In this document: piece by piece, positions 26,939-55,475 of the stretch | Layout of the letters: each line of letters starts with the position of its first letter | Position numbering within the stretch: position 1 is the first letter of the stretch | Source: Oscillospiraceae bacterium | GTDB lineage: Bacteria > Bacillota > Clostridia > Oscillospirales > Oscillospiraceae | Assembly: GCA_902760845.1 (NCBI GenBank) | Contig: CACWHX010000004.1 | Location: forward strand, 1-64,000 | Length of the DNA stretch: 64,000 nucleotides | Direction: 5' to 3' | Program-made: the position numbers and the translations under genes | The notes under the pieces: model-generated | The model's database searches: none | Told to the model about the DNA's origin: nothing | The model's input: only the letters and a program-made list of their open reading frames with translations

Positions 26939-27979
26939 ATGAAGCATTCCAAACCGGCCCGCGTGCTTGCGGTGCTGCTCGCCTGCGTGCTGCTGTGCGC
27001 GTGCGAAAAGCAGGAAGCGAGTGTTGAGGGCGTGACGAGCTCAGTCTTCGCCATGGACACGATTATGGACCTCACGCCCTATGGCGCGGCGGCGGAGGAG
27101 GCAAACACCGCGGCCGAGGCTCGCATCCTGGAGCTGGAGTCACTTTTTTCCGTCACACAGGAGGGGAGCGACGTATACCGCGCGAATCACGGCGACGGCG
27201 TCCCGGTGACGGTGTCGGAGGATACGGCCGCGCTGCTGGAAACGGCGCTGCGCGTCTGCGCGCAGACGGACGGCGCGCTGGACATTTCGATCTACCCCGT
27301 GCTGCGGACGTGGGGCTTTACCACAGGGAGCTACCAGGTGCCGGACGAGGCGGAGATCCAGTCGCTGCTGGAGCGCGTGAATTATCGGGATATAGCGTTT
27401 GACGCCGATGCGCGCACGGTGTCGCTGCCGGACGGAATGGAAATCGACCTCGGCAGCGTCGCCAAGGGCTACACCGGCGATCAGGTGATGCAGGTGTTCC
27501 GGGACACGGGCGTCACGTCGGGGATGATTAACCTCGGCGGGAACGTGCAGGTGCTCGGGACGAAGCCGGACGGCAGCGCCTGGCGCGTCGCCGTGCAGGA
27601 CCCGCGGGGCGACGGGTATGTCGGCGTGATCGAGGCGGTCGATCAGGCGGTCATCACCTCCGGCGGCTATCAGCGCTATTTTGAGCAGGACGGGGAAATC
27701 TATTGGCACATCCTTGACCCCGCAACCGGCGCCCCGGCGCACAGCGGCGTGATCTCCGCCACGGCTGTCGGTGACTCCGGCACAATGTGCGACGCGCTCT
27801 CAACGGCGCTGTTTGTCATGGGCGCCGATCGCGCCGAGGACTATTGGCGGACCTATGGCGGGTTTGACTATCTGCTCGTCACAGAGGACGGAAAAATCAT
27901 TCTGACAGAGGGGCTGGCCGACCGGTTTGAACCCCTCGGCACATGGGAAAGCAGCTCCGTTACGGTGGTGAAGAAATGA
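26939..27979 (+). CDS. apbE: FAD:protein FMN transferase (ApbE/FmnB), lipoprotein
   Basis: A 346-residue lipoprotein (lipobox LLCAC) that covalently attaches FMN through a phosphodiester bond to Thr/Ser in exported FMN-binding domains. The family signature TSGGYQRYFEQDGEIYWHILDP (seen as SGGYQRYF and HILDPATGAP), the DLGSVAKGY motif and the metal-binding DALSTALFVMG are present. It heads a cluster that contains its likely substrates: FMN-binding domain genes at 29099, 31973 and 33544. The pilin at 53149 is a further candidate. In Listeria FmnB performs this job for the electron-transfer lipoprotein PplA. ATG 26939 follows GGAAAGGAA. It overlaps the next gene by four bases. Confidence 0.95.
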   Translation: MKHSKPARVLAVLLACVLLCACEKQEASVEGVTSSVFAMDTIMDLTPYGAAAEEANTAAEARILELESLFSVTQEGSDVYRANHGDGVPVTVSEDTAALLETALRVCAQTDGALDISIYPVLRTWGFTTGSYQVPDEAEIQSLLERVNYRDIAFDADARTVSLPDGMEIDLGSVAKGYTGDQVMQVFRDTGVTSGMINLGGNVQVLGTKPDGSAWRVAVQDPRGDGYVGVIEAVDQAVITSGGYQRYFEQDGEIYWHILDPATGAPAHSGVISATAVGDSGTMCDALSTALFVMGADRAEDYWRTYGGFDYLLVTEDGKIILTEGLADRFEPLGTWESSSVTVVKK

Positions 27980-28362
27980 AAAAGACCTCGTTCTGGGTCA
28001 TTTTGATTGCGGCGGTCGCCCTGCTGGCCGGGGTCGCCGCGGTGTGGCTGCAGATTCGCGGCGCGGGCGCGACCATAGCGAACATCTATCAGGACGGCGT
28101 CTGCATCCGCTCCATTGATCTCAGCAGCCTGACCGAGACCGTGACGTTCACGGTCGAAGGCCCCGCCGGTACGAATACCATTGAGGCGGAGCACGGGCGC
28201 ATCCGGGTCTCGCACGCGGAATGTCCGGACCAGGTCTGCGTGGAGATGGGCTGGCGTTCCGACGGCGCGTCGCCGATCGTGTGCCTGCCGAACAAACTTG
28301 TGATCCGGCTGGAGAACACGGCCGCGAGCGCCACGCCGGAGATTGACGGGGTGACGGGATGA
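27976..28362 (+). CDS. eetA: EetA-like NusG domain II protein
   Basis: A 128-residue protein with one N-terminal membrane helix (about residues 5-25) and an extracytoplasmic NusG domain II (IYQDGVCIRSIDL, HAECPDQVCVEMGW, PIVCLPNKLVI). The position between apbE and a Gx-transporter-type gene is that of EetA in flavin-based extracellular electron transfer loci, where EetA and EetB are needed to pass electrons from quinol to exported flavoproteins; the mechanism is not known. Translation is coupled to apbE by ATGA and to the next gene by another four-base overlap. The assignment rests on family plus context. Confidence 0.78.
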   Translation: MKKTSFWVILIAAVALLAGVAAVWLQIRGAGATIANIYQDGVCIRSIDLSSLTETVTFTVEGPAGTNTIEAEHGRIRVSHAECPDQVCVEMGWRSDGASPIVCLPNKLVIRLENTAASATPEIDGVTG

Positions 28363-28868
28363 AGGGCATGACGACCAGACAGCTGAGCCTGATGGCGCTG
28401 CTCACGGCCATCGCGCTCGCCATTCACGTGGCGGAGGCGCAGATTCCCGCGCCGGTGCCGATCCCCGGCGTGAAGCTGGGACTTGCGAATATCATCACGG
28501 TCTACGCGGTGTTTACGCTTGGCGCGGGCCCGGCGTGCATGATCCTGGCCGCGCGCATCTTGCTGGGGAGCCTGTTTGCCGGCCAGGCGATCTCGCTGCT
28601 GTACAGTCTGGCGGGCGGCCTGCTGTGCCTCCTGGCCATGCTGCCGCTGCGCAAGGTCCTCACACGAAAGCAGATCTGGGTCTCCAGCGTGATCGGCGCC
28701 ATTTTTCACAACGTCGGGCAGATCCTTGTGGCGATTGTCGTGACCGGTACGCCCGCAATCGCGAGCTATTTCCCGGTGCTGCTGCTCTCCGGTATTGCGG
28801 CGGGCCTCTTTACCGGCTTTGCGGCGCAGGCGCTGATTGCGAGGATGGATAAGCGCAAAAAGCAATGA
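28359..28868 (+). CDS. eetB: EetB-like Gx transporter-family membrane protein
   Basis: A 169-residue membrane protein with about five helices, of the family once named heptaprenyl diphosphate synthase component I and also called Gx transporter. The ECF-S-like region PIPGVKLGLANIITVYAVF and glycine-rich membrane segments are typical. It is translationally coupled to the EetA-like gene and followed by a terminator, so apbE-eetA-eetB form one operon. In electron-transfer loci this is the EetB position. An isoprenoid role seems unlikely because no synthase catalytic subunit is adjacent. Confidence 0.78.
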   Translation: MKGMTTRQLSLMALLTAIALAIHVAEAQIPAPVPIPGVKLGLANIITVYAVFTLGAGPACMILAARILLGSLFAGQAISLLYSLAGGLLCLLAMLPLRKVLTRKQIWVSSVIGAIFHNVGQILVAIVVTGTPAIASYFPVLLLSGIAAGLFTGFAAQALIARMDKRKKQ

Positions 28869-29098: not shown

Positions 29099-31849
29099 AT
29101 GAAGAAAAAGCAAATCCTCGGCCTGCTCCTGAGCCTGGTTCTGGTGCTGGCGCTGGTGCCGGCGGCACACGCGGCGGACATTGTGGAGCCATTCACGGAT
29201 GTTCCGACCGGCGTGTTTTACTCCGACCCGGTCGCGTGGGCGGTGGACGAGGCCATCACAAACGGCACGTCCGCGACGATGTTCAGCCCGGAAAAGGTCT
29301 GCACGCGCGGGGAGATCGTCACATTCCTGTATCGTTACGCCGGCAAGCCCGCGGTATCGAATGTGAAAAATCCGTTTACGGACGTAGCGGAAGGTACGTT
29401 CTACTATAACGCCGTCCTCTGGGCGGTGGCCAATGAGATCACCAACGGCATGACGCCGACGACGTTCGGACCGGACAGCCCGTGCACCCGCGCGCAGATC
29501 GTCACGTTCCTGTACCGCTATGCCGGGAAGCCCGCGGTGTCGGGCGCGTCGAATCCGTTTACGGATGTGAAGGCGGACAATTATGCGTACGACGCGATTC
29601 TCTGGGCGGTGGACAATGGGATCACCAACGGCATGACGCCGACGACGTTCGGGCCCGACAATCCGTGCACCCGCGCGCACGCGGTGACGTTCCTGTATCG
29701 CTATGCGCAGACGGTGCCGGAAGAGTCTGTGGTCTATGTTCTGATGAACATTCCGTACGATACGTTCTATCGGAACGTGATCGGCACGGCGCAGCAGAGC
29801 GGGATCGACGCAGTGACGTCCTCCACCGGCAAAAAGGCCGCGTACTTCTGGGACGGCACGGTGAAGGGGAACGCGGAGGTTGCGTTCGGCGCGGACAAGA
29901 CCATTTACGGCGTGCGTTTCCCGGTCGCGCTCTCCGCGTCTGATTTCGACAAGCTGAGCACGAACCTTGAAAAGAGCGATGCGTACTATGCGGAGCGGCT
30001 CAATGAAACGCCCGCGCTGTACACCACGGCCACGGTGTCCGATAACGGCGGCGTGACGCTCAATCCGCTGGACGCGCAGGCCACGGCGCTTTCGGGCGCG
30101 ACGGTTTCGCTCTCGGACGAAAGCAAGCATGGCGACTACCTGCTTACGATCACCAATGACGGCGGCGTTCTCTCCAGCGCCGACAAGGCGACCTTTGCGG
30201 TTTACGGCGCCGTGCTGAAAACGGCGGACAAGGAATATGCGCTGCGCCACCTTGAAAATCTCTACTACAAGGATTTCAACGAGATTGCGTTCTGCACGAC
30301 TTCCACCGTGACCGGCAAGAATCTTGTGGTGGACCCCGAGTATTTCGCCGATCTGGAGGGGAAGACGATCACGGAGATCGACTACTACACGAATGCCGGC
30401 ATCTTCACCATCCAGACGAACGTGAAGGTGACGCCGGCCGCCTATGCGCTGATGAACATCCCGTACGACGTGTTCTACAGCGCGGAGGGGACCGCGAGCT
30501 TTGACGCGGACGCGGTGTCCTCCGCGACCAATAAGGTCGGCAACTACGGCAAGGCCGGCGGCGCGTTCCACTCGATCGCGACGGCGAGCGTGGCCGATGA
30601 CGGAACCGTTACCGCCGTGGGCGGCGCGAACGGCGCGCACCTGGAGGGCGTGACCTGGCCCGTCAAAGTGGCCGACGCGGAGCAGCTCGCGCTGCTCGGC
30701 GGCAAGGAGATCACCAACGACACGACCGTGACGGTCGCGACGGTTGGCCGCGGAGCGACGAGCTCCACGGATCTCACCGGTGCCGCGACGCTGATGGAGG
30801 CCCCGGCCTATTCCTACTACATCCTGGACGGCAAGCCGGACTATTACATGGAGCTGACCGTGAACGGCACGACGCCCGCGTTCTCCGCGCTCGTCGGCCG
30901 GGCGACCACGGTGGACAATCTGGAGGCCGGCGTGTCCTATGCCACCAACTGGGGCGACGTGCAGCTGGATCTGTCCAAGGCGGCGGAGGTGTCCGACAAG
31001 CAGGTGAACGCGATGGTCATCACCACGAAGGACGGCGCCTCGGCAGGCATGATCCATCTGTATAACGTCTGGTCCAACAGCGACATCGGCTGGAGAGTCG
31101 CGAACGTGCAGGGGCTGGACGGCACGACCATCACGAACATTCGTTACTACTGCAACGACAAGAACGGCAATTACTTCGTCTACGATTATCCGGTCTCTCT
31201 GGACATTCTGCCGATCTATACCGGCGAAGTGACCGCCGCGTTCGCGGACAGCGGCACGGTTGAAGTGACCGGGCTTCCGGCGGATATCCAGAACCCGACG
31301 GCAAAGGTGTATCACACCACCGGCGGCAGAAACCCGGTTCTGACCTACCTCACGCCGACCTACATCGACCCGGCGGACGGCGACGTTGAGCCGGAGACCG
31401 TTCCGGTCACGGACGGCAAGATTGCGCTGACGAACGCGCCCGAGGACGGCAAGACCTATGTCGTCGTGATCGGCAGCGACAACTATTTCGCCATCACGAT
31501 CTCGGCCGAGTATGTCAACGTGGACGGCGACTATACCGCGACGGCGACCGTGCAGGACGTGGAAGGCGATTTTGCCGACTATGACATCACGGTTCAGGTC
31601 ACGGTTTCCGATGGAAAGATCAGCGACCTGAAGGTGACCGAATACGGCACTGCGTATGACAGCGACAACGATCCCTATATGAAAAGAGCGCTGACCAGCG
31701 GCAGGGGCGGCGTTGCCGGCATCGCCGCGCAGGTGCAGGGACAGGATGCCACCGGCGCGCTGCAGATCGACGCGGTAACCAGCGCGACGTGCTCCTCCAA
31801 GGCGCTGATCGAGGCGATCGACGCCGCGCTCGCGGCAATCCGCGCGTAG
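29099..31849 (+). CDS. SLH-domain surface protein with FMN-binding motifs
   Basis: A 916-residue exported protein. A signal peptide (to AHA, residue 25) is followed by three SLH repeats (about residues 30-205), which bind secondary wall polymer. A central region has two related modules beginning VLMNIPYDTFY and ALMNIPYDVFY, and the C-terminus is an FMN_bind-like domain (about 815-916). The flavinylation-type motif D-x-x-[ST]-x-A-[ST] appears as DAVTSAT (Thr897), DAVSSAT (Thr477) and the imperfect DAVTSST (Thr243). The first small residue is Ser rather than the usual Gly, so flavinylation is inferred. It would place flavins in the S-layer/wall, beyond the membrane-anchored carriers encoded downstream. 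Confidence 0.85.
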   Translation: MKKKQILGLLLSLVLVLALVPAAHAADIVEPFTDVPTGVFYSDPVAWAVDEAITNGTSATMFSPEKVCTRGEIVTFLYRYAGKPAVSNVKNPFTDVAEGTFYYNAVLWAVANEITNGMTPTTFGPDSPCTRAQIVTFLYRYAGKPAVSGASNPFTDVKADNYAYDAILWAVDNGITNGMTPTTFGPDNPCTRAHAVTFLYRYAQTVPEESVVYVLMNIPYDTFYRNVIGTAQQSGIDAVTSSTGKKAAYFWDGTVKGNAEVAFGADKTIYGVRFPVALSASDFDKLSTNLEKSDAYYAERLNETPALYTTATVSDNGGVTLNPLDAQATALSGATVSLSDESKHGDYLLTITNDGGVLSSADKATFAVYGAVLKTADKEYALRHLENLYYKDFNEIAFCTTSTVTGKNLVVDPEYFADLEGKTITEIDYYTNAGIFTIQTNVKVTPAAYALMNIPYDVFYSAEGTASFDADAVSSATNKVGNYGKAGGAFHSIATASVADDGTVTAVGGANGAHLEGVTWPVKVADAEQLALLGGKEITNDTTVTVATVGRGATSSTDLTGAATLMEAPAYSYYILDGKPDYYMELTVNGTTPAFSALVGRATTVDNLEAGVSYATNWGDVQLDLSKAAEVSDKQVNAMVITTKDGASAGMIHLYNVWSNSDIGWRVANVQGLDGTTITNIRYYCNDKNGNYFVYDYPVSLDILPIYTGEVTAAFADSGTVEVTGLPADIQNPTAKVYHTTGGRNPVLTYLTPTYIDPADGDVEPETVPVTDGKIALTNAPEDGKTYVVVIGSDNYFAITISAEYVNVDGDYTATATVQDVEGDFADYDITVQVTVSDGKISDLKVTEYGTAYDSDNDPYMKRALTSGRGGVAGIAAQVQGQDATGALQIDAVTSATCSSKALIEAIDAALAAIRA

Positions 31850-31913: not shown

Positions 31914-31972
31914 TGTGTGGGTTTCCCGCCCGCCGTGGGGAATAAAATTCGTTTTGGATGGGAGGAATGCGC

Positions 31973-33547
31973 ATGGATCAAACGCGAAGCGCCGTATGGA
32001 GCCGCTGGCGGTTTCTGCTGTTTTTGCTGCCGGCGGTGCTGGTCGCCGTTCTCGTTTCCATTACGCTGCCGCGCACGGCGCCGCAGCTGGAGGCGATTCC
32101 GGAGCGGCTGGAGCTGCTCACGGGCGGCGACGGACCCTCGCAGGCCGCGCTGACGCTGCCGGTGGACGTTGCGGACGGCGTCTATACCGGCTCCGCGCGC
32201 GGCTTCGGCGGCCCGATAACCGTGGAGGTCACGGTCAAGGACCGCCGGATCACAGCCGTGGAGATCGTATCCGCCGCCGGGGAGACCGAAAACTATTTCC
32301 GCCAGGCCCGGCGCGTGCTCGAGGCGGTCTATGAAAAGCAAACCTGGGAGGTCGATGTCGTCTCCGGCGCGACCTACAGCAGCCGCGGCATTCTCGGCGC
32401 GATCCAAAACGCGCTGACCGGCGAGACGGTGAACAACCCCGCGCCGCCGCAGGCGAACGCGGGCAAACGGGCGGCGGTTGACACCTTCGACGAACCGGCG
32501 GCTTATCGGGACGGCGTCTATCGCGGCACGGCGCAGGGCTTTGGCGGCGATATCACCGTGGAGGTGACGATCAGCGGCGGCAGGATTGCGGCGATCAACG
32601 TCGTCAGCGCGTCAGGGGAGACGCAGACCTATCTCACGCGCGCGCTCTCAGTCGTCTCCGCCATGCGCAACGCGAACTCGCCGAATGTGGACACGGTTTC
32701 CGGCGCGACGTTCAGCTCCGCCGGGATCATCAACGCGACGAAACGCGCCCTGAGGCAGGCGGCGGCGGACCCGGACAGTCCGGCGATTGCGGAGCCCGCG
32801 GACCCGGCGCCGGTGGACAATCCGGACGCGATGCCGGAAAAGCCGCTCGCGGACGGCGTCTATACCGGCACCGGCGAGGGGTTCGGCGGGGATATCACCG
32901 TGCAGGTCACGGTCTCCGGCGGCCGGATCACGGCTGTGGAGATCGTCAGCGCCGACGGAGAAACGGCGGCGTATCTGAACCGCGCCAAGGCGCTGCTGCC
33001 GAAGGTTCTCGGCACGCAGGGGACGCACGTGGACGCCGTTTCCGGCGCGACCTACAGCTCGAAGGGGATTTTGGAGGCAATCGACGCGGCGCTTCGCAAG
33101 GCGGCCGGCGAGGACGCGGCCGAAACGCCGCAGCCGTCCGAGCCGCCGACACCGTCAGATCCGCCGGACGAGCCGGAGTCTCCGTATGCGGACGGCGTCT
33201 ATACCGCGTCGGCGTGGTGCGACGACGGGGAGGACTTCCGCTACCAGATCGTCGTCACGATCACGATCACCGACGGGAGAATCGCCGCTGTGCATATGGA
33301 GCGCGGGCTTGACGAATCGGACGACCCGTCCGCCAACGACGTCTACTACAACCGCGCGCTGAACGGCGCGACGCGAAACGGCGTGACGACGCCGGGCATC
33401 CCGGCGCAGATCGTAAGCAGACAGACCGCGGACGGGATCGATGCTGTGAGCCGCGCGACCTATACCTCCAACGCCGCCCAGGCCGCGGCGCGGCAGGCGC
33501 TCGCGCAGGCGACGGCGGCGAAAAACGGAGGGGGCGCGTCGGGATGA
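31973..33547 (+). CDS. Membrane-anchored protein with four FMN-binding domains
   Basis: A 524-residue protein with one N-terminal membrane helix (about 13-32) and four tandem FMN_bind domains joined by Pro/Asp/Glu-rich linkers. Each begins DGVYTG-like and contains FGGxITVxV. The attachment motifs are DVVSGAT (Thr134), DTVSGAT (Thr246), DAVSGAT (Thr360) and a degenerate DAVSRAT (Thr496, Arg in place of Gly). Multi-flavinylated proteins of this type are proposed as flavin wires across the wall, with FMN added by ApbE. ATG 31973 is preferred, seven bases after GGGAGG. It overlaps the next gene by four bases and begins the three-gene membrane part of the locus. Confidence 0.92.
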   Translation: MDQTRSAVWSRWRFLLFLLPAVLVAVLVSITLPRTAPQLEAIPERLELLTGGDGPSQAALTLPVDVADGVYTGSARGFGGPITVEVTVKDRRITAVEIVSAAGETENYFRQARRVLEAVYEKQTWEVDVVSGATYSSRGILGAIQNALTGETVNNPAPPQANAGKRAAVDTFDEPAAYRDGVYRGTAQGFGGDITVEVTISGGRIAAINVVSASGETQTYLTRALSVVSAMRNANSPNVDTVSGATFSSAGIINATKRALRQAAADPDSPAIAEPADPAPVDNPDAMPEKPLADGVYTGTGEGFGGDITVQVTVSGGRITAVEIVSADGETAAYLNRAKALLPKVLGTQGTHVDAVSGATYSSKGILEAIDAALRKAAGEDAAETPQPSEPPTPSDPPDEPESPYADGVYTASAWCDDGEDFRYQIVVTITITDGRIAAVHMERGLDESDDPSANDVYYNRALNGATRNGVTTPGIPAQIVSRQTADGIDAVSRATYTSNAAQAAARQALAQATAAKNGGGASG

Positions 33548-33993
33548 AGCGAAATTACATCGGGAAGCTCGCGAGCCTCGTGCTGATTCTGGCGGTGCTG
33601 TTCGCTTATCAGAGCGTGGCGAAGGCGCGGGAGGCACAGGTCGCGCAGAACCAGGCGGAGATTGCCGAGATCGACGCCTACAACCGGGAGCTTCTCCGGC
33701 AGCAGGGAGGCGGCAGCGCCTCCTACGAGCCGGGGACCTATACAGGGGAGGGCCAGGGCTTCGGCGGCGCGATCACGGTCTCCGTGACGGTGTCCGAAAC
33801 GGAGATCGAGGCAATCGAGGTGCTGACCCATGCCGGAGAGGACCCCGCGTACTTTTCGACCGCGGAATCCGTAGTGGACGCGGTTTTGCGCGCCCAGGGG
33901 ACCGATGTTGACACGGCCTCCGGCGCGACGTTCAGCTCGCTCGGCCTGCTGGACGCGATCAACGCTGCGCTGGAGGAGGCGGTGAAGGGATGA
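33544..33993 (+). CDS. Single-domain membrane-anchored FMN-binding protein
   Basis: A 149-residue protein with an N-terminal membrane helix (about 8-25), a short coiled segment rich in Ala/Gln/Glu and one FMN_bind domain (YTGEGQGFGGAITVSV). The attachment motif DTASGAT gives Thr129 as the predicted flavin site. It is sandwiched by ATGA overlaps between the four-domain protein and the NapH-like protein, so the three are co-translated. It is a likely first extracytoplasmic acceptor from the membrane ferredoxin. Confidence 0.92.
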   Translation: MKRNYIGKLASLVLILAVLFAYQSVAKAREAQVAQNQAEIAEIDAYNRELLRQQGGGSASYEPGTYTGEGQGFGGAITVSVTVSETEIEAIEVLTHAGEDPAYFSTAESVVDAVLRAQGTDVDTASGATFSSLGLLDAINAALEEAVKG

Positions 33994-34892
33994 AGCAGCG
34001 GGAAAACACGGCCGCGCAGCCGGCGCTGTGCCGGCGTCGGCTGCGCGGCAGAAAGCGCGCCGCGTGGCTGCGAACCGGTGTGCAGACGGTGTTCTTTTTT
34101 GCCATGCCGGGCGCGTTTGTCGCCGGCTTTTCCGGGGTGAAGAGCCTGTTTCAGAGCGTTGGCGCGGGCCAGCCGCTGCAGTGGAGCGGCTTTGTCGCGG
34201 CGCTGGTCGCGCTGTGCGCGTTCACCATCGTGTTCGGGCGGTTTTTCTGCGGCTATCTCTGCGCGTTCGGGAGCCTGGGCGACTTTGTCTACTGGCTCTC
34301 CGGCGTCGTGCAGAAGAAAGTGTTCAGGCGCCGGACGCAGTATCGCCTCCCGGACAGGCTGACACCCCTTGGCCAGAAGGTCAAATACGCCGTGCTCGCG
34401 CTGATCGTGATCCTCTGCGCGCTGAACGTCTATGACAGTCTCGGCGGCTGGAGTCCGTGGTCCGTCTTTTCGTTTTTGACGGCGCTTCGGTTTTCGTTTA
34501 GCGGCTATGAGATCGGCGTGCTCCTGCTGCTTTTGATCGTCGCGGGCATGGCGGTGAAGGAGCGGTTCTTCTGCCAGTTTCTCTGCCCGATGGGCGCCGT
34601 TTTCTCGCTGCTGCCGATTTTGCCCTTCGCCATGCTGCGGCGCGACCCGGAAAACTGCCTCACCGGCTGCCAGGCGTGCAAAAAGCAGTGCCCGGTCTCG
34701 ATCCGGCTGGAGGCGGACGGATTTCAAAACGGCGAATGTATTTCGTGCGAGCGCTGCGCGACCGTCTGCCCCAGGGAGAATTTGACGCGATGGGACAGAA
34801 GACCGGGCCAAAACGTGGCGCTTCCCGTGCTGTTCAAGGCGGCGCTCTTTTTTGCCCTGGGCGCCTGGCTCGGCCTGTGCCGGTTTCTGTGA
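33990..34892 (+). CDS. NapH-like membrane [4Fe-4S] protein
   Basis: A 300-residue polytopic membrane protein of the NapH/NosR-C/YccM type. About five helices carry FCGYLCAFG and FCQFLCPMG, membrane-proximal cysteine motifs typical of this family. A C-terminal ferredoxin domain has CLTGCQACKKQCP and CISCERCATVCP for two [4Fe-4S] clusters. Such proteins couple quinol or cytosolic donors to exported redox carriers. Overlap with the FMN gene and the shared terminator make it the electron-entry candidate for the flavin proteins (inference). Confidence 0.9.
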   Translation: MKQRENTAAQPALCRRRLRGRKRAAWLRTGVQTVFFFAMPGAFVAGFSGVKSLFQSVGAGQPLQWSGFVAALVALCAFTIVFGRFFCGYLCAFGSLGDFVYWLSGVVQKKVFRRRTQYRLPDRLTPLGQKVKYAVLALIVILCALNVYDSLGGWSPWSVFSFLTALRFSFSGYEIGVLLLLLIVAGMAVKERFFCQFLCPMGAVFSLLPILPFAMLRRDPENCLTGCQACKKQCPVSIRLEADGFQNGECISCERCATVCPRENLTRWDRRPGQNVALPVLFKAALFFALGAWLGLCRFL

Positions 34893-48895: not shown

Positions 48896-49438
48896 CTAAA
48901 AATCTCGCCTGCGGATTGTTGTAATGATCTTTCCCAGCAGATCGTCCGTCCTGACCGGACCATAGTAGCGGCTGTCCACCGCGTTTTCGCGGTTGTCTCC
49001 CAAAACGAAAACCTCTCCGTCCGCCAGCGTGATCGGATATACCGCGCCGCCTACAAATGCCAATGTCTCGCCTGCCGCGTAGTCCTCCTGCTGATAATAG
49101 CCGTTGATGCGCAGGCCGTCGCTTGTGATGTCCACGCGGTCTCCGGCCGTTGCCACGACGCGCAGGATCGAAAGCGTCCCGTCCCGGTTTCGGACCGCGA
49201 CCACATCCCGCACCTCGTACGTATGGTCCAGCCGGTAGTACACGGCCAGGTCCCGGTCCCGGATGGAGGGCGCCATGTCGTTGCCGCGCACGGAGCAGAC
49301 GCCGAAGACAAAGCGCTCCAGCAGAAAGAGCGCGGCCGCAATCACCATGAGCTTAATCAAAAGCGCCAGAAGGTCCGAGCGCAGAGAGGGCTGCTTCGGC
49401 ACAGCCGCCGCTTCAGCGGCTGCTTTCTTTTTTCGCAT
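48896..49438 (-). CDS. sipA: SipA-like pilus-assembly protein (inactive signal peptidase I paralogue)
   Basis: A 180-residue protein with the signal peptidase I fold. It has one N-terminal helix (about 22-42), the box normally reading SM-x-P (here GNDMAPSI), GDRVDI and the C-terminal FVLGDNRENAVDSRYYGPV. The catalytic serine is replaced by Asp54 and the lysine position reads ILRVV (Leu92), so peptidase activity is not expected. Streptococcal SipA, encoded in pilus islands with Spy0128-type pilins, likewise has Asp in place of Ser and is needed for pilus polymerisation. It overlaps the sortase gene by 26 bases and ends the operon. Confidence 0.85.
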   Translation of the reverse strand: MRKKKAAAEAAAVPKQPSLRSDLLALLIKLMVIAAALFLLERFVFGVCSVRGNDMAPSIRDRDLAVYYRLDHTYEVRDVVAVRNRDGTLSILRVVATAGDRVDITSDGLRINGYYQQEDYAAGETLAFVGGAVYPITLADGEVFVLGDNRENAVDSRYYGPVRTDDLLGKIITTIRRRDF

Positions 49439-50303
49439 TGCTTTTTCGATGCCTCCAATAGATTGTCAGGAGCAAAACCAGCAGCACGAGCGCAATCCAT
49501 ACCGCGTATGGAATGCCCCACAGCGAATGCCGCCGTGCTGCCTGCGCCGCGGTGTCCGCCGCGGCAGGCTCGGGCCGCGCGCTGACCGCGGCCGCCAGGA
49601 TCATCCTGCCATTGGTTTCGGAGGACGCGCAGGTGCTGAGCAGCACGATCCGCTCGCCTTCCTCGGGGAGCGCGTCGCTTTTCTGCTCAGCGAGCTCCAG
49701 CAGTCCGCGCAGGTACGCCCCGCTTTCCGCATCCGAAGTCTCCGGCGCGTAGACCGTCTGGTCATAGCCGTCCGCCCGAAGGAACGCAAAGATCCGCAGT
49801 GCGTGATTTTGCCCGTTATAAAAGAGGCTTCCAGTCTGGTGGGCGGCAAAGAAATCCTCGTCCGCAAAGGCGTCAAAGCAGCCGAACATATTGTCCCTTT
49901 CCATGTGGTGCCCATAGAAAATCGAGACCCTGTCCGTCATCTCCCGGCTGTTTCGGAAGTCCAGAAAAATGCTGCCGGACAGGGAAAACTCCCGCTCTGC
50001 GGACAGGTTGATATATTCAAAATTATCCGCTCCCTGCACGACCGGGTAGTCGATTTTCGTGTCGTCCACGGTCAGCCAACCGAAGACGTCCGGATTCCGT
50101 TCGCACAGCTGCGAAAAGGTCAGGTGTTCGCTTTCGGTTGGCTTATACTGCGCGTAGCGCACGGCGTCCGCTTCCTTCGCGATTTGCCCGGAGTCCCAGA
50201 GAATGTACGCGCCGAACAAAAACAGCGCCAACACCACGGTCAGCACGATCAGATTGATCGCCTCGTCGATCACGGCCACAATCCTTCGCCCGGCACTCCG
50301 CAT
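49413..50303 (-). CDS. Class B-type sortase (pilus sortase)
   Basis: A 296-residue transpeptidase. An N-terminal membrane helix (about 15-37) is followed by the sortase barrel with the catalytic His in FYGHHM (132/133), Cys225 in LLSTCAS and Arg233 in ETNGRM. Unusually it has a second C-terminal membrane helix (about 264-283) and basic tail. Class B-type sortases polymerise pili in FCT-type islands. Its likely substrates are the NPLTG, SPLTG and PVKTG proteins encoded just upstream. ATG 50303 overlaps the previous stop by one base. Confidence 0.93.
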   Translation of the reverse strand: MRSAGRRIVAVIDEAINLIVLTVVLALFLFGAYILWDSGQIAKEADAVRYAQYKPTESEHLTFSQLCERNPDVFGWLTVDDTKIDYPVVQGADNFEYINLSAEREFSLSGSIFLDFRNSREMTDRVSIFYGHHMERDNMFGCFDAFADEDFFAAHQTGSLFYNGQNHALRIFAFLRADGYDQTVYAPETSDAESGAYLRGLLELAEQKSDALPEEGERIVLLSTCASSETNGRMILAAAVSARPEPAAADTAAQAARRHSLWGIPYAVWIALVLLVLLLTIYWRHRKSNAKKESSR

Positions 50304-50896
50304 CACGCGCCCTGCCTTTTGCGCCGCGGCCGAAAGCACAAGACGAGGAGAACGGCGCCCGATACGCTCATCAGCGCAAGATAGACGGCGGGGCGGGCCT
50401 CGTCTCCTGTTTTCACCGGCGCGGTGCTGTTTGGCGTCGGCGCGGGCGATGGGGAGACCGCTGCGACCGGCGTGAGCGCAAACGTGATTTCGCTCTTTTT
50501 GCCGTCCTCGTTGTAGGCGAATACCGAGACAGAGCCGTCGCCGCGCACGCGCAGCAGCACCCGGCAGGATGCCGGTGTGACTGTGCAGCCCTGCGTCTTT
50601 TCGGCCCGCAGCGTATACCAGAAGTCCCCGGCGACGTCAGTTGGGATGGGGGCAAATGCGCCCTCTGCACTCCCGCTGAGCGTCAGCGTGCGCTGCGCCT
50701 CCGGCGGCATGGGATTCGACGGCGCGTCCGGGCTGAGCGTATAGGTGACGGATGCGGTCGCGTCAGCGGTCAAACTCTGGCGCACCGGGACAGACACGGC
50801 ATCCGCCGCCCATCCCGTCACGGGAAGCGCGACGAGGAGCATTGCCAGCAGCAGGAGGCCTGAAACCAGCACCCTGATACAGCATTTTGTTCTCAT
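50303..50896 (-). CDS. Small pilin/anchor subunit with PVKTG sorting signal
   Basis: A 197-residue exported protein: signal peptide (to GWAAD), a single FctA/FctB-like beta domain (TASVTYTLSP, DFWYTLRAEKTQGC, SEITFALTPV), a Pro/Ser/Thr-rich stalk (PSPAPTPNSTAPV) and the sorting motif PVKTGDEA followed by a membrane helix and RPRRKRQGA. The small size and proline-rich stalk suit a basal pilin that attaches the fibre to the wall. It lies between the vWA pilin and the sortase. Confidence 0.82.
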   Translation of the reverse strand: MRTKCCIRVLVSGLLLLAMLLVALPVTGWAADAVSVPVRQSLTADATASVTYTLSPDAPSNPMPPEAQRTLTLSGSAEGAFAPIPTDVAGDFWYTLRAEKTQGCTVTPASCRVLLRVRGDGSVSVFAYNEDGKKSEITFALTPVAAVSPSPAPTPNSTAPVKTGDEARPAVYLALMSVSGAVLLVLCFRPRRKRQGA

Positions 50897-50953
50897 AAAG
50901 CATTCCTTCTCCTTGATCCAGCCGCCGGAAGGCGGCTGGATCAGATCCTTCCG

Positions 50954-53119
50954 TCACCCACGGGCACGTTTCCGCTTCCGGTCGAACATGACTCCTGCGG
51001 CCGCGAATACCGCGAGCAGAAGCACGATCAAAAACGGCGCGTTGTTTTCCACCAGTCCCGTGAGCGGACTGTCCACATAGGCGTTGGTGAAGTCCACTTT
51101 GTTTTCGCCTTCGCCGGTGGTTTGATCCTGCACCTTCAGCTCCGAGCCGGCGCTCGCCGTGAAGGGCGTTGCGTTCTCCGTGCCGTCCGTGGTCACGACG
51201 GCCTTGGGCGCGTAGCTCTCTGCCGCGGCCTCTGTGACGGTGTAGCCCGTGCCAACGGGCACGGTAAAGGTGATCGTCTCGCCGTCCTTCAGCTGGAAGC
51301 TGTGCGCGTCGCCGTATTCCACCGTCGCGCCGTCGGTCGTGGGCTTCACGGTTCCGGCATTGTTCGCCGCCGTGAAGACGATGGTGTAGTCAAACGCCTT
51401 CGACGTGTCCGCGTGATTTCCCGTCACCGTCTTGCCGATCGTCAGCTCCGTGGTCTTCACACCCTTCGTGTAGGTGTTTTCAAACGTCATCGTATCGACC
51501 TTGACGCTCGTGTCGGCGGCGTTCGTCAGCGTCACGTGACCATTGTTGACGCCGTCCGTGTAATCGGTCTCGACGGTGTCCGAAGCGGTTTTGCAGACCT
51601 TGATGGACAGGATGTATTCTGCGCTGTCATACTGCACACGCTCCAGATTGGATGCCGCATAGGTGTCCGGCTTCTCCTTGATGGAGTAGGTGAAAACGCC
51701 CTCCCCGGTGAATGACGAGAGGTCCGGGAGCGCCATGCTGCCGGTTTTTACGATCTGGTTGTTGCCATCCGGCGTGTCGCTGCTGCTGAAGCTGATCGTC
51801 ACGTCGCCGATCGCCGGCCCGCCGTTTGTCGGCGTTGCCTCGAAGACGAAGCCGGCCGCCGGGACCGTGCCGTCGCCGCTGTTTACCGTGAGGGTCTTCT
51901 CAAGCTGGATGGTCGTGGCGGAGGGCGCCTGCTTCGTGAGCGTGATCTGCGGCTCCTCGGCGTAGGGGACGGTGTTTTCGTCGCTCCCGTAGAAATAGCG
52001 AAGCGTTGCGCCGTCGTTGCTGGGGAGGCTGATGCTGTCGGTGCTTGCCGCGTTCGCCGCATCCCGCGCGCTTTGCGTGGGCTTCACATCAAAGCCCACG
52101 GAGAGAACCTCCCCGTCCGGGACCTCGCCGCTGTAGGTAACGGAGACGGTCTTGCCGTTCACGCTGGTTGTGTACTTGTTGGATGCGACCGCCGTGCCGT
52201 TCAGTGTGACCGTCGGGGAAAAGCCGCCGTCCAGCTCCACGTACTGACTGAGCGTGTCGGAAATGGTGACGTTGGAGAGCGGGGTGGAGGATACCGTCGT
52301 CTCCTCCTGGATGATCTGAAGCGCGCTGTTGAACGCATTCACCATTGCGCTTGCGTTTGCCGCAGCATAATATTTATTCGCGTCGCTGGCGATGCTTTTG
52401 ATCTTATCGTCAGACTCATACCAGTAGGCTGGCGGCAGGCCGACGGAAAAAACCGTCGCCTTCTGTTTGACGGCGTTTGCCGCGGCGTTGATGGTCGCCT
52501 GAGAGTCGCTCGCATCGCCGTCGGAGAAGAAGATGACATATTTGTTGTTGCCGTCGTTTTTTATGACGCTGCCGTCAAGCTGCGCGTTGGCGGCGTTCAG
52601 CCCGGGCGCATAGGTGGTATCATAGGAATAATTATCGTTATGAAGCGTCAGACCGTCTATGATTCCGTTCAGCGTCTGTTTGCTTGTCGCCGATATCGAG
52701 GTCCAGTCCTGATTCGTCCAGACGGGCGTACTCCCCGAGTTGCTGGTCATGCCGAAGGTAATCAGCGTGATATGCGAATCGCTGTCGTTTTTCAGGCCGG
52801 ACACAAATTGCTTGACAGCGCTCTGTATGGCGCTGAGTCTCGTCGTCCCATCGGACATCGTCGATTTCATGGAGCTTGTGACGTCTATGACCAGAACGAT
52901 ATCCGCGTGCCCGTTCGTTGTTGTCGTGCTGGAGCTGCTGGACACCTTGTCTTTCCCCGTCACGTTCAGTGTCAGGGTGTAGGCGTCTCCACTGCCGCTG
53001 ATGCTCTTGTGGTGTGTTGGGACGGTGTCCGCCGCCAGCGCCGCCGGCATGAGCCCGACCAGCAGCGTCAGCGCCATCAGCACGCTCAAAAGCCTGCTTA
53101 CCTGTTTTTTTGCTTTCAT
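50954..53119 (-). CDS. vWA-domain pilin with Spy0128-type isopeptide domains
   Basis: A 721-residue exported surface protein. A signal peptide (to ALA, residue 30) precedes a vWA domain with a MIDAS-like DVTSSM (Asp79) and SDGDASDS. Two Spy0128/FctA-type domains follow, each with a candidate isopeptide Lys (in LEKTLT and IGKTVT) and Asn (in FENTYTK and FTNAYVD). The end is DSPLTGLVE (683-691), a membrane helix and RKRKRARG. vWA pilins are usually tip adhesins. ATG 53119 follows GAAGGAG at seven bases; an upstream in-frame start at 53152 would overlap the previous stop. Confidence 0.9.
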   Translation of the reverse strand: MKAKKQVSRLLSVLMALTLLVGLMPAALAADTVPTHHKSISGSGDAYTLTLNVTGKDKVSSSSSTTTTNGHADIVLVIDVTSSMKSTMSDGTTRLSAIQSAVKQFVSGLKNDSDSHITLITFGMTSNSGSTPVWTNQDWTSISATSKQTLNGIIDGLTLHNDNYSYDTTYAPGLNAANAQLDGSVIKNDGNNKYVIFFSDGDASDSQATINAAANAVKQKATVFSVGLPPAYWYESDDKIKSIASDANKYYAAANASAMVNAFNSALQIIQEETTVSSTPLSNVTISDTLSQYVELDGGFSPTVTLNGTAVASNKYTTSVNGKTVSVTYSGEVPDGEVLSVGFDVKPTQSARDAANAASTDSISLPSNDGATLRYFYGSDENTVPYAEEPQITLTKQAPSATTIQLEKTLTVNSGDGTVPAAGFVFEATPTNGGPAIGDVTISFSSSDTPDGNNQIVKTGSMALPDLSSFTGEGVFTYSIKEKPDTYAASNLERVQYDSAEYILSIKVCKTASDTVETDYTDGVNNGHVTLTNAADTSVKVDTMTFENTYTKGVKTTELTIGKTVTGNHADTSKAFDYTIVFTAANNAGTVKPTTDGATVEYGDAHSFQLKDGETITFTVPVGTGYTVTEAAAESYAPKAVVTTDGTENATPFTASAGSELKVQDQTTGEGENKVDFTNAYVDSPLTGLVENNAPFLIVLLLAVFAAAGVMFDRKRKRARG

Positions 53120-53148
53120 ACTGTTTCTCCTTCTATTTTTTTGCTTTT

Positions 53149-54837
53149 TCACGCACGCCGGCGCCTGCGGTCAAGCGCGATCCCCGCCGCCGCGAGGACG
53201 GCGGCCAGCATGAGGATCAAAAACGGCGCGTTGCGCTCCGCCACGCCCGTGAGGGGATTGTCGTCATAAGTGTTGGTGAAGTCCGCCGCGTTCGTTCCAT
53301 CGACGATGCTGCCGCTTATGGTCAGCGCCTGTCCCGACTGTCCGCTTTCGTCGCGCCGCGTGTCGCCCGCGGTCACGGCCGCGCTGGGGAGATAGTTGGG
53401 CGCCGCCGCCTCGGTGATGGTATATGTTGTCCCCACAGGCGCGCTGAACGCAAGGCTCTGCCCGTCCTTCAGCGCAAAGCTTTTGGGCGTGCCGTAGGAG
53501 AGCGTCTCGGCCGCGCCGTCAATGGTGACGGTGGGCGCTTTGCCGCTCGAGACCCCATCCGGGTCCGTAAACGTGATGGTATAGGAAAAATCCCTGGACG
53601 AATCCGCATGCCTGCCGGAGACGGTTTTGCGCACGGTCAGCGTGCCGTCCGTCACCTTGCTGTAGGTGTTCTCGAACAAAAGCGCGTCGCACTTTTCGCC
53701 GACGGCCGCTCCGCTGTCATCCAGCCTGCGGATCTCCGTGCCGCACGGCTCGTACTTCCCGTCGCCGGTTTTGCAGAACTTGAGCTTCACCTGGTACGCG
53801 GCAGTGTCATAGACCATACGCTCGCCGGCCTGAGCCTGAAAGGTGTCCGCCGCTTCCCGGACGATGTAAGTGAATGTGCCCGCGGCGTGCAGCGCATCGG
53901 CGGGAATCGTGACAGAAACGCGCTTTGTCGCCCTCCCGGAGACCGCCGCGTCCTCCGGTCCAAACGTGATCGTCTGGGGCGCGATCTGCGGTGCGTTCGC
54001 ATCTGTGGAAGTAAAGGTGAATCGAAACGCGGCGCTCGGCGTCTCCGCCGCCTGGACATTCAGCGTCTTTTCCAGCTCCAGAACCTGCACCCCGTTGCCA
54101 GACGGATCCGTTCCGCCGCCGTTCGGCGCGCTTCCAAGCGCGTTTTTGATTGCGTCGGCAATGCACGCGCGATAGCCCTGCGGTGTTGCCGACGTCACGG
54201 CGTCTACAACCTCGGCGTTGGCGACGCTGCCCAGATACGCGCTACGCACCTGGTCCAGCAGGGAGTACCAGGAGCCGTCCGCATCCCGGATGACGATGTT
54301 GGTGATTTTTTCGTCGGACACCGTCACGTCAAGCGTGATGAAATGGCCGTTCGCCATGCTGCCTGTTCCGGTATACACGCCGTCCGCGACGCCGGAGGCG
54401 TCCTGCTGCGAGCCGGCTTTTGCGGGCGCGCTGGCCAGCGCCCGCTCGATCGCCTGGATCATATCCGAGGAATACTTGCCGGAGCTGCTTCCGGAGCCGC
54501 CCACTGAGGCCGACGAAACAGCGTCTATGCCGGAGCATGTTTCCAGCGTTGCCGGCTTGCCGATATAGCTGCCCTTCACGCTGTTCAGCAGATCGTTGAA
54601 CCGACTCTGCTTATCACTCGCATAGACGGTCATGTTGGATATGACGCCGTCGCTGACCGTCACATATACCGTGCCGTAGTAGTATTTGAGCTTGCCGTCG
54701 CTCCTTTTTGTCACGGTCACGGAGCTGGAATAGACGCCGTCCTCCGCCGTCTCGCCCGCGTTCAGCGCGAGCGCCTCCATGGCGCATAAGGACAGCAGCA
54801 TTACAGCCGCCAGAACCAGGGACACGATTTTTTTCAT
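53149..54837 (-). CDS. Flavin-binding pilin: two FMN-binding domains fused to isopeptide pilin domains
   Basis: A 562-residue exported protein and first gene of the pilus operon. After a signal peptide (to about 25) come two FMN_bind-like domains (33-135 and 152-234) with attachment-type motifs DAVSSAS (Ser111) and DAVTSAT (Thr218). Two Spy0128/FctA-type domains follow, with candidate isopeptide residues Lys257/Asn390 and Lys404/Asn522 and glutamates in REA and TEA. The sorting signal is NPLTG (527-531), then a membrane helix and RRRRRA. The motifs carry Ser where Gly is usual, as in the SLH protein at 29099. If flavinylated by ApbE and polymerised by the sortase, it would form a flavin-bearing pilus (inference). 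ATG 54837 follows AAAGGGGGAG. Confidence 0.88.
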   Translation of the reverse strand: MKKIVSLVLAAVMLLSLCAMEALALNAGETAEDGVYSSSVTVTKRSDGKLKYYYGTVYVTVSDGVISNMTVYASDKQSRFNDLLNSVKGSYIGKPATLETCSGIDAVSSASVGGSGSSSGKYSSDMIQAIERALASAPAKAGSQQDASGVADGVYTGTGSMANGHFITLDVTVSDEKITNIVIRDADGSWYSLLDQVRSAYLGSVANAEVVDAVTSATPQGYRACIADAIKNALGSAPNGGGTDPSGNGVQVLELEKTLNVQAAETPSAAFRFTFTSTDANAPQIAPQTITFGPEDAAVSGRATKRVSVTIPADALHAAGTFTYIVREAADTFQAQAGERMVYDTAAYQVKLKFCKTGDGKYEPCGTEIRRLDDSGAAVGEKCDALLFENTYSKVTDGTLTVRKTVSGRHADSSRDFSYTITFTDPDGVSSGKAPTVTIDGAAETLSYGTPKSFALKDGQSLAFSAPVGTTYTITEAAAPNYLPSAAVTAGDTRRDESGQSGQALTISGSIVDGTNAADFTNTYDDNPLTGVAERNAPFLILMLAAVLAAAGIALDRRRRRA

Positions 54838-54891
54838 AGGCTCCCCCTTTGTTTTTCCGCGCCGAAGTTCAGAGCGCGGGGATAGAAAGTA

Positions 54892-54914
54892 ATTATAAGT
54901 TAGCATAAACTAAC
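54892..54914 (-). promoter_or_regulatory. Pilus operon promoter with GTTAG-N6-CTAAC operator, copy 2
   Basis: On the minus strand the dyad GTTAGTTTATGCTAAC (54914-54899) lies immediately upstream of a consensus TATAAT (54897-54892). No good -35 stands at 16-18 bp, so a bound protein could block or activate. It matches 14 of 16 bases of the dyad at 29057-29072, and both are preceded by G. Confidence 0.65.
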
Positions 54915-55030
54915 CTAACTTAGCAAAAGATAACACAAGGAGAATAAAAAAGCAACCCCTACGACCGGGAAAATTTCTGATTTCACAAATTTTAAGAAAT
55001 AAACCCAGGGCAGGAAAATCACTCCCACAG

Positions 55031-55401
55031 CAGCGGAAGAAGGATTCGAACCCCCGGACCGCGTTGCGGCCCGGGGCGCGCTGCGCGCGGAGATAAATAA
55101 TGTGAGGGTTCGAATCCCGCGGCCAGAAACAAAAGAGAGCGATTTACCCATTCGGGCAAATCGCTCTCCTGGCAGCGGAAGAAGGATTCGAACCCCCGGA
55201 CCGCGTTGCGGCCTGGGGCGCGCTGCGCGCGGTGATTAAAAAATGTGAGGGTTCGAATCCTGCGCCCAGAAAAAAAGAGAGCGATTTACCCATTCGGGCA
55301 AATCGCTCTCCTGGCAGCGGAAGAAGGATTCGAACCCCCGGACCGCGTTGCGGCCCAGAAACAAAAGAGAGCGATTTACCCATTCGGGCAAATCGCTCTC
55401 C
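55031..55401. repeat. Tandem array of tRNA-Gln 3'-end fragments and terminator hairpins
   Basis: Three partial copies of the tRNA 3' end (CCA, acceptor and T-arm; at 55031-55053, 55170-55195, 55312-55337) alternate with three near-identical hairpins (55135-55168, 55277-55310, 55367-55400; 11-bp stem GAGAGCGATTT/AAATCGCTCTC). Two units also hold an inverted T-arm copy (about 55104-55117 and 55247-55260) and CG-rich mini-palindromes. Unit spacing is about 140 bases, with the last unit shortened to 90. The hairpin next to the intact tRNA serves as its terminator. The rest looks like repeated duplication or integration scars. Confidence 0.8.
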
Positions 55402-55475
55402 TGGCAGCGGAAGAAGGATTCGAACCCTCACAAACGGAGTCAGAGTCCGGTGTGCTACCATTACACAATTCCGCT
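55402..55475 (-). tRNA. tRNA-Gln (anticodon CTG)
   Basis: A 74-nt tRNA with encoded CCA. The acceptor AGCGGAA pairs with TTCCGCT, the anticodon loop CTCTGAC lies between CGGA and TCCG, and the T-loop is GTTCGAATC. It decodes CAG. It is the only complete copy in the array. Confidence 0.95.

Follow-up and report, generated by a model that had tools for sequence, protein, structure and literature searches.

The main known extracellular conduits for electrons are multihaem cytochrome filaments and flavoproteins located near the membrane. Flavin mononucleotide (FMN) is attached by ApbE within the consensus D-x-x-[S/T]-G-A-[S/T] (PMC12052999), and FMN proteins anchored to the cell wall have already been noted (PMC8238504). 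In Enterococcus faecalis, the Ebp pili bind iron oxides via a tip adhesin with a metal-ion-dependent adhesion site (MIDAS) and aid extracellular electron transfer (EET) (PMC11878085). In the covalent pili of Streptococcus pyogenes, K161 of Spy0128 lies 7 residues before N168 (PMC7900414), and SipA has Asp48 and Gly85 at the positions of the signal peptidase dyad (PMC4049620). Here we consider a class B sortase pilus operon from an Oscillospiraceae bacterium, located in a stretch of 64,000 nucleotides (positions 1 to 64,000 of contig CACWHX010000004.1, assembly GCA_902760845.1; "the window" below), one pilin of which carries two FMN_bind-like domains. With somewhat better than even confidence, we favour the view that this operon encodes a covalent FctA-type pilus carrying a diflavin pilin, which would be a redox-active adhesin at or near the tip.

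A five-gene class B sortase pilus operon

The five pilus genes form one operon (48896-54837, minus strand, read from 54837 down), in the order FMN pilin, vWA pilin, FctB-like subunit, sortase and SipA-like protein. The successive genes are separated by 29 bp, by 57 bp, by a stop/start overlap and finally by overlapping reading frames. All five start sites are good and all genes lie where a first-pass annotation of this DNA had placed them; the true start of the sortase is likely the ATG at 50302, overlapping the stop of the FctB-like subunit gene. That annotation had called the gene order FCT-like. The order is not strictly that of FCT, since SipA comes last and the base subunit precedes the sortase.

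The FMN pilin (562 aa, 53149-54837) has everything first ascribed to it from its signal peptide to its Arg tail, save that the two N-terminal domains need the longer discussion given below. FMN_bind-like domain 1 (aa 31-140, 54418-54747) contains the candidate flavinylation motif DAVSSAS (aa 105-111, 54505-54525) with Ser111 as acceptor, and FMN_bind-like domain 2 (aa 146-237, 54127-54402) contains DAVTSAT (aa 212-218, 54184-54204) with Thr218. Two isopeptide domains follow, both over the Pfam cut-off and each with a Lys-Glu-Asn triad: a Spy0128-like FctA domain (53659-54078; PF12892, E 2.8e-11), in which an acceptor Lys lies 8 residues before the Asn, and DUF7601 (53266-53646; PF24547, E 1.6e-17). 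The NPLTG sorting signal (aa 527-531, 53245-53259), a membrane helix and the Arg tail complete the protein. In an alignment of six related pilins all the triads are conserved, and an invariant Lys is found 7-8 residues before the first Asn.

The other four products are likewise as first described. The vWA pilin (721 aa, 50954-53119) consists of a vWA domain with a MIDAS-like DVTSS (VWA_2, E 1.6e-9), DUF7604, an FctA-like region, DUF7601 and SPLTG. The small FctB-like base subunit (50303-50896) ends in PVKTG, with a srtB_target match just below cut-off; all three subunits thus have a sorting signal with its tail. The class B sortase (49413-50339) scores 165.5 bits with TIGR03064 (cut-off 153.75), and its His, Cys and Arg are kept in the alignment. 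The SipA-like protein (48896-49438) is an S26 pseudo-signal-peptidase with Asp and Leu at the Ser and Lys positions, and is predicted to be catalytically dead; the Asp stands at the Ser position just as in S. pyogenes SipA. The marks of the FctA/Spy0128 type are therefore present together (isopeptide triads, sorting signal with helix and basic tail, acceptor Lys, class B sortase, and a SipA without Ser/Lys), and we read the operon as probably encoding an FctA-type sortase pilus, whose covalent polymer is itself a prediction from the genes.

The FMN_bind-like domains of the pilin and their motifs

Several observations weigh against a flavin-bearing pilus and are best put together at the outset. 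PF04205 (FMN_bind) has no match in the 562-aa pilin at E<1 in Pfam, and an NCBIfam search of the pilin for FMN_bind gave no match either. Both motifs read Dxx[S/T]SA[S/T], with Ser in place of the Gly of the ApbE consensus; changing that Gly to Ala left about 50% flavinylation, and Ser is a worse acceptor than Thr (PMC12052999). The structural matches described below have weak Foldseek E-values (0.06-0.17) and are interleaved with IscU decoys. ApbE is common, being present in 162 of 197 genomes of the order (82%); its presence in all five carrier genomes was dropped as support on account of that base rate, and only adjacency of apbE to the pilus genes is counted as evidence. Finally, no orthologues of the operon were found in the genus, so that it is accessory there.

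The assignment of the two domains to FMN_bind comes from homologues over the cut-off, profile comparison and structure rather than from a direct Pfam match. Against the PF04205 cut-off of 22 bits, homologues of domain 1 at two related loci score 29.6 bits (L089) and 23.6 bits (L093) at the same domain (alignment A2), and homologues of domain 2 score 23.9 bits (L084) and 22.3 bits (L085). By hhalign, domain 2 aligns with the window's own FMN_bind domains at 97.2% (E 4e-11). A weak sequence-profile match of the pilin N-terminus places the FMN-domain structure 8p2b on top. In Foldseek, the best PDB match of the AlphaFold model made for residues 27-240 (pLDDT 79.6) is 8p2a, which comes from a multi-flavinylated protein (prob 0.97); 8p2b takes ranks 3 and 9, and the TMt values are 0.56-0.64. 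The structural check proposed in the first-pass annotation was thus answered by an FMN domain at the top of the ranking but with poor significance; we take it as supportive only, and alone it is no proof of the fold. Taken together, these comparisons suggest that both N-terminal domains are relatives of FMN_bind, as first thought, even though Pfam does not recognise them in this protein.

If so, are they flavinylated? It is conceivable that flavin attachment has been lost, that the domains are structural or adhesive and that the pilus is an ordinary adhesive one. The missing Gly in both motifs, the silence of Pfam, an insert of about 10 residues after the motif in domain 1 and the vWA adhesin in the same operon are all compatible with this. 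We nevertheless find such a loss rather unlikely, given that every homologue of both domains, across several families, keeps Ser or Thr as the acceptor, and that three of the six domain 2 copies (L084, L085 and L086) have a canonical GAT. The same S-for-G form also occurs in a surface-layer homology (SLH) protein of the window's ApbE cluster, and at locus L082 apbE adjoins the pilus operon itself. The pilin is exported and the genome has an exported ApbE, as expected for an ApbE substrate. Still, we do not class the pilin as a proven substrate, and flavin on Ser111 and Thr218 has the standing of a candidate.

Relatives, genomic setting and the flavin cluster

A sampling of genomes for FMN_bind beside an FctA-type pilin and a sortase, along the lines suggested at the outset, shows that the combination recurs in a few rumen relatives of this gut-type anaerobe. 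(Below, L074 and L086, like L075 and L083, are the same loci under two labels.) As a query against the genome contigs, P0001 alone gave no match. The tandem is present in well under 1% of sampled genomes: not counting the window, 2 of 394 have it in the sample of the order, and 1 of 298 in one family. The FMN-tandem pilus is rare in the sampled relatives, yet recurrent; that the repeats, the two motifs and the operon are met again in independent genomes is more than chance.

L082 has the same five-gene operon, with an FMN pilin that is 57% identical to ours over the tandem and carries DTVSSAT and DAVTSAT; a convergent apbE lies 30 bp beyond it, followed by Hpre_diP_synt_I and NusG_II genes. 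In L086/L074, L083/L075 and L085 (Ruminococcus/Clostridiales assembled genomes) the tandem is fused to vWA, DUF7604 and repeats. The adjoining genes in L074, L075 and L085 encode a pilin with PPTG and a sortase, with FctA-DUF7601 recognised in the two pilins scanned with Pfam (L074 and L075); genes for a small subunit and for a SipA-like protein are also present at these two loci. In L084 the tandem, vWA and LPSTG reside in a single 1939-aa protein. FMN tandem and vWA are thus one polypeptide in relatives and neighbouring genes in the window, and the shaft-type pilin of relatives has no FMN domain. Since the tandem is fused with vWA there and the shaft-type pilin lacks it, the comparison speaks for a redox adhesin in an accessory or tip position and against a continuous wire.

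A wire was among the roles first proposed for this pilus, and the FMN pilin, having its own FctA-DUF7601-NPLTG module and a conserved acceptor Lys, could indeed polymerise as a shaft subunit whose diflavin units make a continuous flavin path. We hold this to be very unlikely. Besides the separate large protein that carries the tandem in relatives, pilin subunits of the Spy0128 type are about 10 nm long, and the spacing to be expected from this would exceed the reach of direct tunnelling between flavins.

Some features of the relatives deserve mention in their own right. The fused proteins of L074 and L075 end in a dockerin-like module, a duplicated F-hand (the L085 copy is incomplete), and that of L075 finds its PDB matches among R. 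bromii and scaffoldin dockerins. The large partner at L079 (genome G280), which resembles a subtilisin-type protease, ends likewise, and the pilins of L074/L086, L075/L083 and L079 begin with a beta-rich, cohesin-looking domain. These pili may be loaded by cohesin-dockerin pairing, but the cohesin half of this idea is unproven: no PDB profile matches the N-terminal domain of the relatives' shaft-type pilins, and the model of that domain is poor (pLDDT 42.8). Separately, surface proteins at L087 (8986-12795), L089 and L094 join FMN_bind with Shr-like haemoglobin-interacting (HID) domains; one of them has a C-terminal VKTG sortase-type signal, and that of L087 adjoins ApbE/NapH genes.

The operon looks like an insertion because extra tRNA-Gln tails lie next to it. 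At 55028-55475, just upstream of the pilus operon, three additional copies of the 3' tail of the tRNA-Gln gene separate that gene from the operon; two of these copies share the gene's terminator hairpin. A genus mate (L107/L114) has a single tail copy and no pilus, and the ackA-tRNA-Gln stretch of genome G007 has no pilus genes. Elsewhere in the window's own genome (L068, C45, 4584-11741) there is a second, ordinary class B sortase pilus operon, in which no FMN motif was seen; it encodes a 1454-aa protein, a SipA-like protein, an FctA-type pilin and a sortase that is 40% identical.

The window also contains a flavin electron-transfer cluster, which the first-pass annotation of the operon does not mention. 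It occupies 26.9-34.9 kb on the plus strand and ends 14 kb from the pilus operon; a random operon would lie this near in about 2% of cases, by a rough, after-the-fact estimate. Its genes encode an ApbE flavin transferase with lipobox LLCAC (26939-27979; PF02424, E 1.9e-84), a NusG_II-domain protein (27976-28362), an Hpre_diP_synt_I / Gx-type membrane protein (28359-28868), the SLH-domain surface protein with a C-terminal FMN_bind (29099-31849; DAVTSATCSS), a membrane-anchored protein with four FMN_bind domains (31967-33547; PF04205 x4, E 1.2e-57), a single FMN_bind protein with an N-terminal membrane helix (33544-33993) and a NapH-like 4Fe-4S membrane protein (33990-34892; PF12801, E 1.1e-13). 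With ApbE, a PF12801 protein and an FMN_bind protein, this is a NapH-like flavinylation cluster as defined in PMC8238504. Of the seven FMN_bind matches found in the genome, this cluster accounts for six, and of the two ApbE genes found, for one. The SLH protein has further motifs in its middle domains (DAVTSST, TALSGAT and DAVSSAT), possible extra flavin sites outside the recognised FMN_bind domains. At L003 (G068, 529-1893) a NapH-like membrane protein is fused directly to a C-terminal FMN_bind with DAVSGAT.

From the gene content, FMN_bind homology, acceptor residues, isopeptide triads, sortase and SipA features and apbE linkage that we observe, we infer flavinylation, polymerisation, an electron source and an acceptor as follows. 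A dedicated class B sortase, aided by SipA, would polymerise a covalent FctA-type pilus with the diflavin protein as one of its pilins. The ApbE lipoprotein encoded at 26.9 kb would attach FMN after export to Thr218 and probably Ser111, and the sortase would use NPLTG to join the FMN pilin to the fibre next to the vWA pilin. A surface would be gripped by the vWA (MIDAS) module, with the FMN domains as a tethered redox site to which electrons would come from the NapH-like, four-FMN and SLH-FMN chain of the same window. The redox-active adhesin, most likely placed at the tip or close to it, would then reduce (or oxidise) an acceptor where the two touch. That the pilus is, in this sense, a contact-dependent redox organelle fed by the NapH-like/multi-FMN chain, a non-cytochrome EET appendage, is a proposal whose chances we see as evenly balanced. 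As for the notion that the FMN pilin is a wall- or pilus-anchored store of flavin, or an oxidoreductase partner, with no tie to the NapH cluster, perhaps serving an extracellular reductase, the modular pairing of FMN_bind domains with many reductases (PMC8238504) and the location of apbE on another contig in L083, L085 and L086 would suit it, but we regard it as most improbable in view of the full candidate transmembrane electron path at 14 kb and the fact that no reductase gene was seen in the pilus operons.

Comparison with described systems

The claim that no pilus of this kind had been described withstood our reading: within an incomplete coverage of the literature on flavinylation or FMN binding and on sortase pilins, we found no description of a flavin-bearing sortase pilus. 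With the S. pyogenes FCT (FctA/Spy0128-type) and PitB-type pili our operon shares the FctA and DUF7601 isopeptide domains, the acceptor Lys, the class B sortase and a SipA without Ser/Lys (PMC4049620, PMC7900414). It differs from them in having two FMN_bind-like domains on one pilin and vWA on the other, in gene order and in its clostridial host.

With the clusters of Meheust et al. 2021 (PMC8238504) the window shares ApbE, multi-FMN_bind, NapH-like and SLH wall proteins. Unlike the proteins of that study, the main text of which does not mention sortase, pilus, pili or LPXTG, the window has FMN_bind on a pilin that bears a sorting signal of its own. SaFMN3 and CbFMN4 (8p2a, 8p2b; PMC10339131) are the best structural matches of the modelled pilin N-terminus; they differ from the pilin in having the canonical GAT-type motif and in being soluble multi-domain proteins. 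The Ebp pilus of E. faecalis is, like the one predicted here, a sortase pilus with a MIDAS adhesin, but its role in EET is adhesion, and no FMN domains are reported on Ebp pilins (PMC11878085).

Hence both parents, the FctA-type pilus and the ApbE-type flavoprotein, are known, while their joining appears, from the genes, to be new. If true, a sortase pilus bearing flavin would add a third solution to the cytochrome filaments and the flavoproteins near the membrane; it would do without haem and would unite adhesion and redox chemistry in one fibre.
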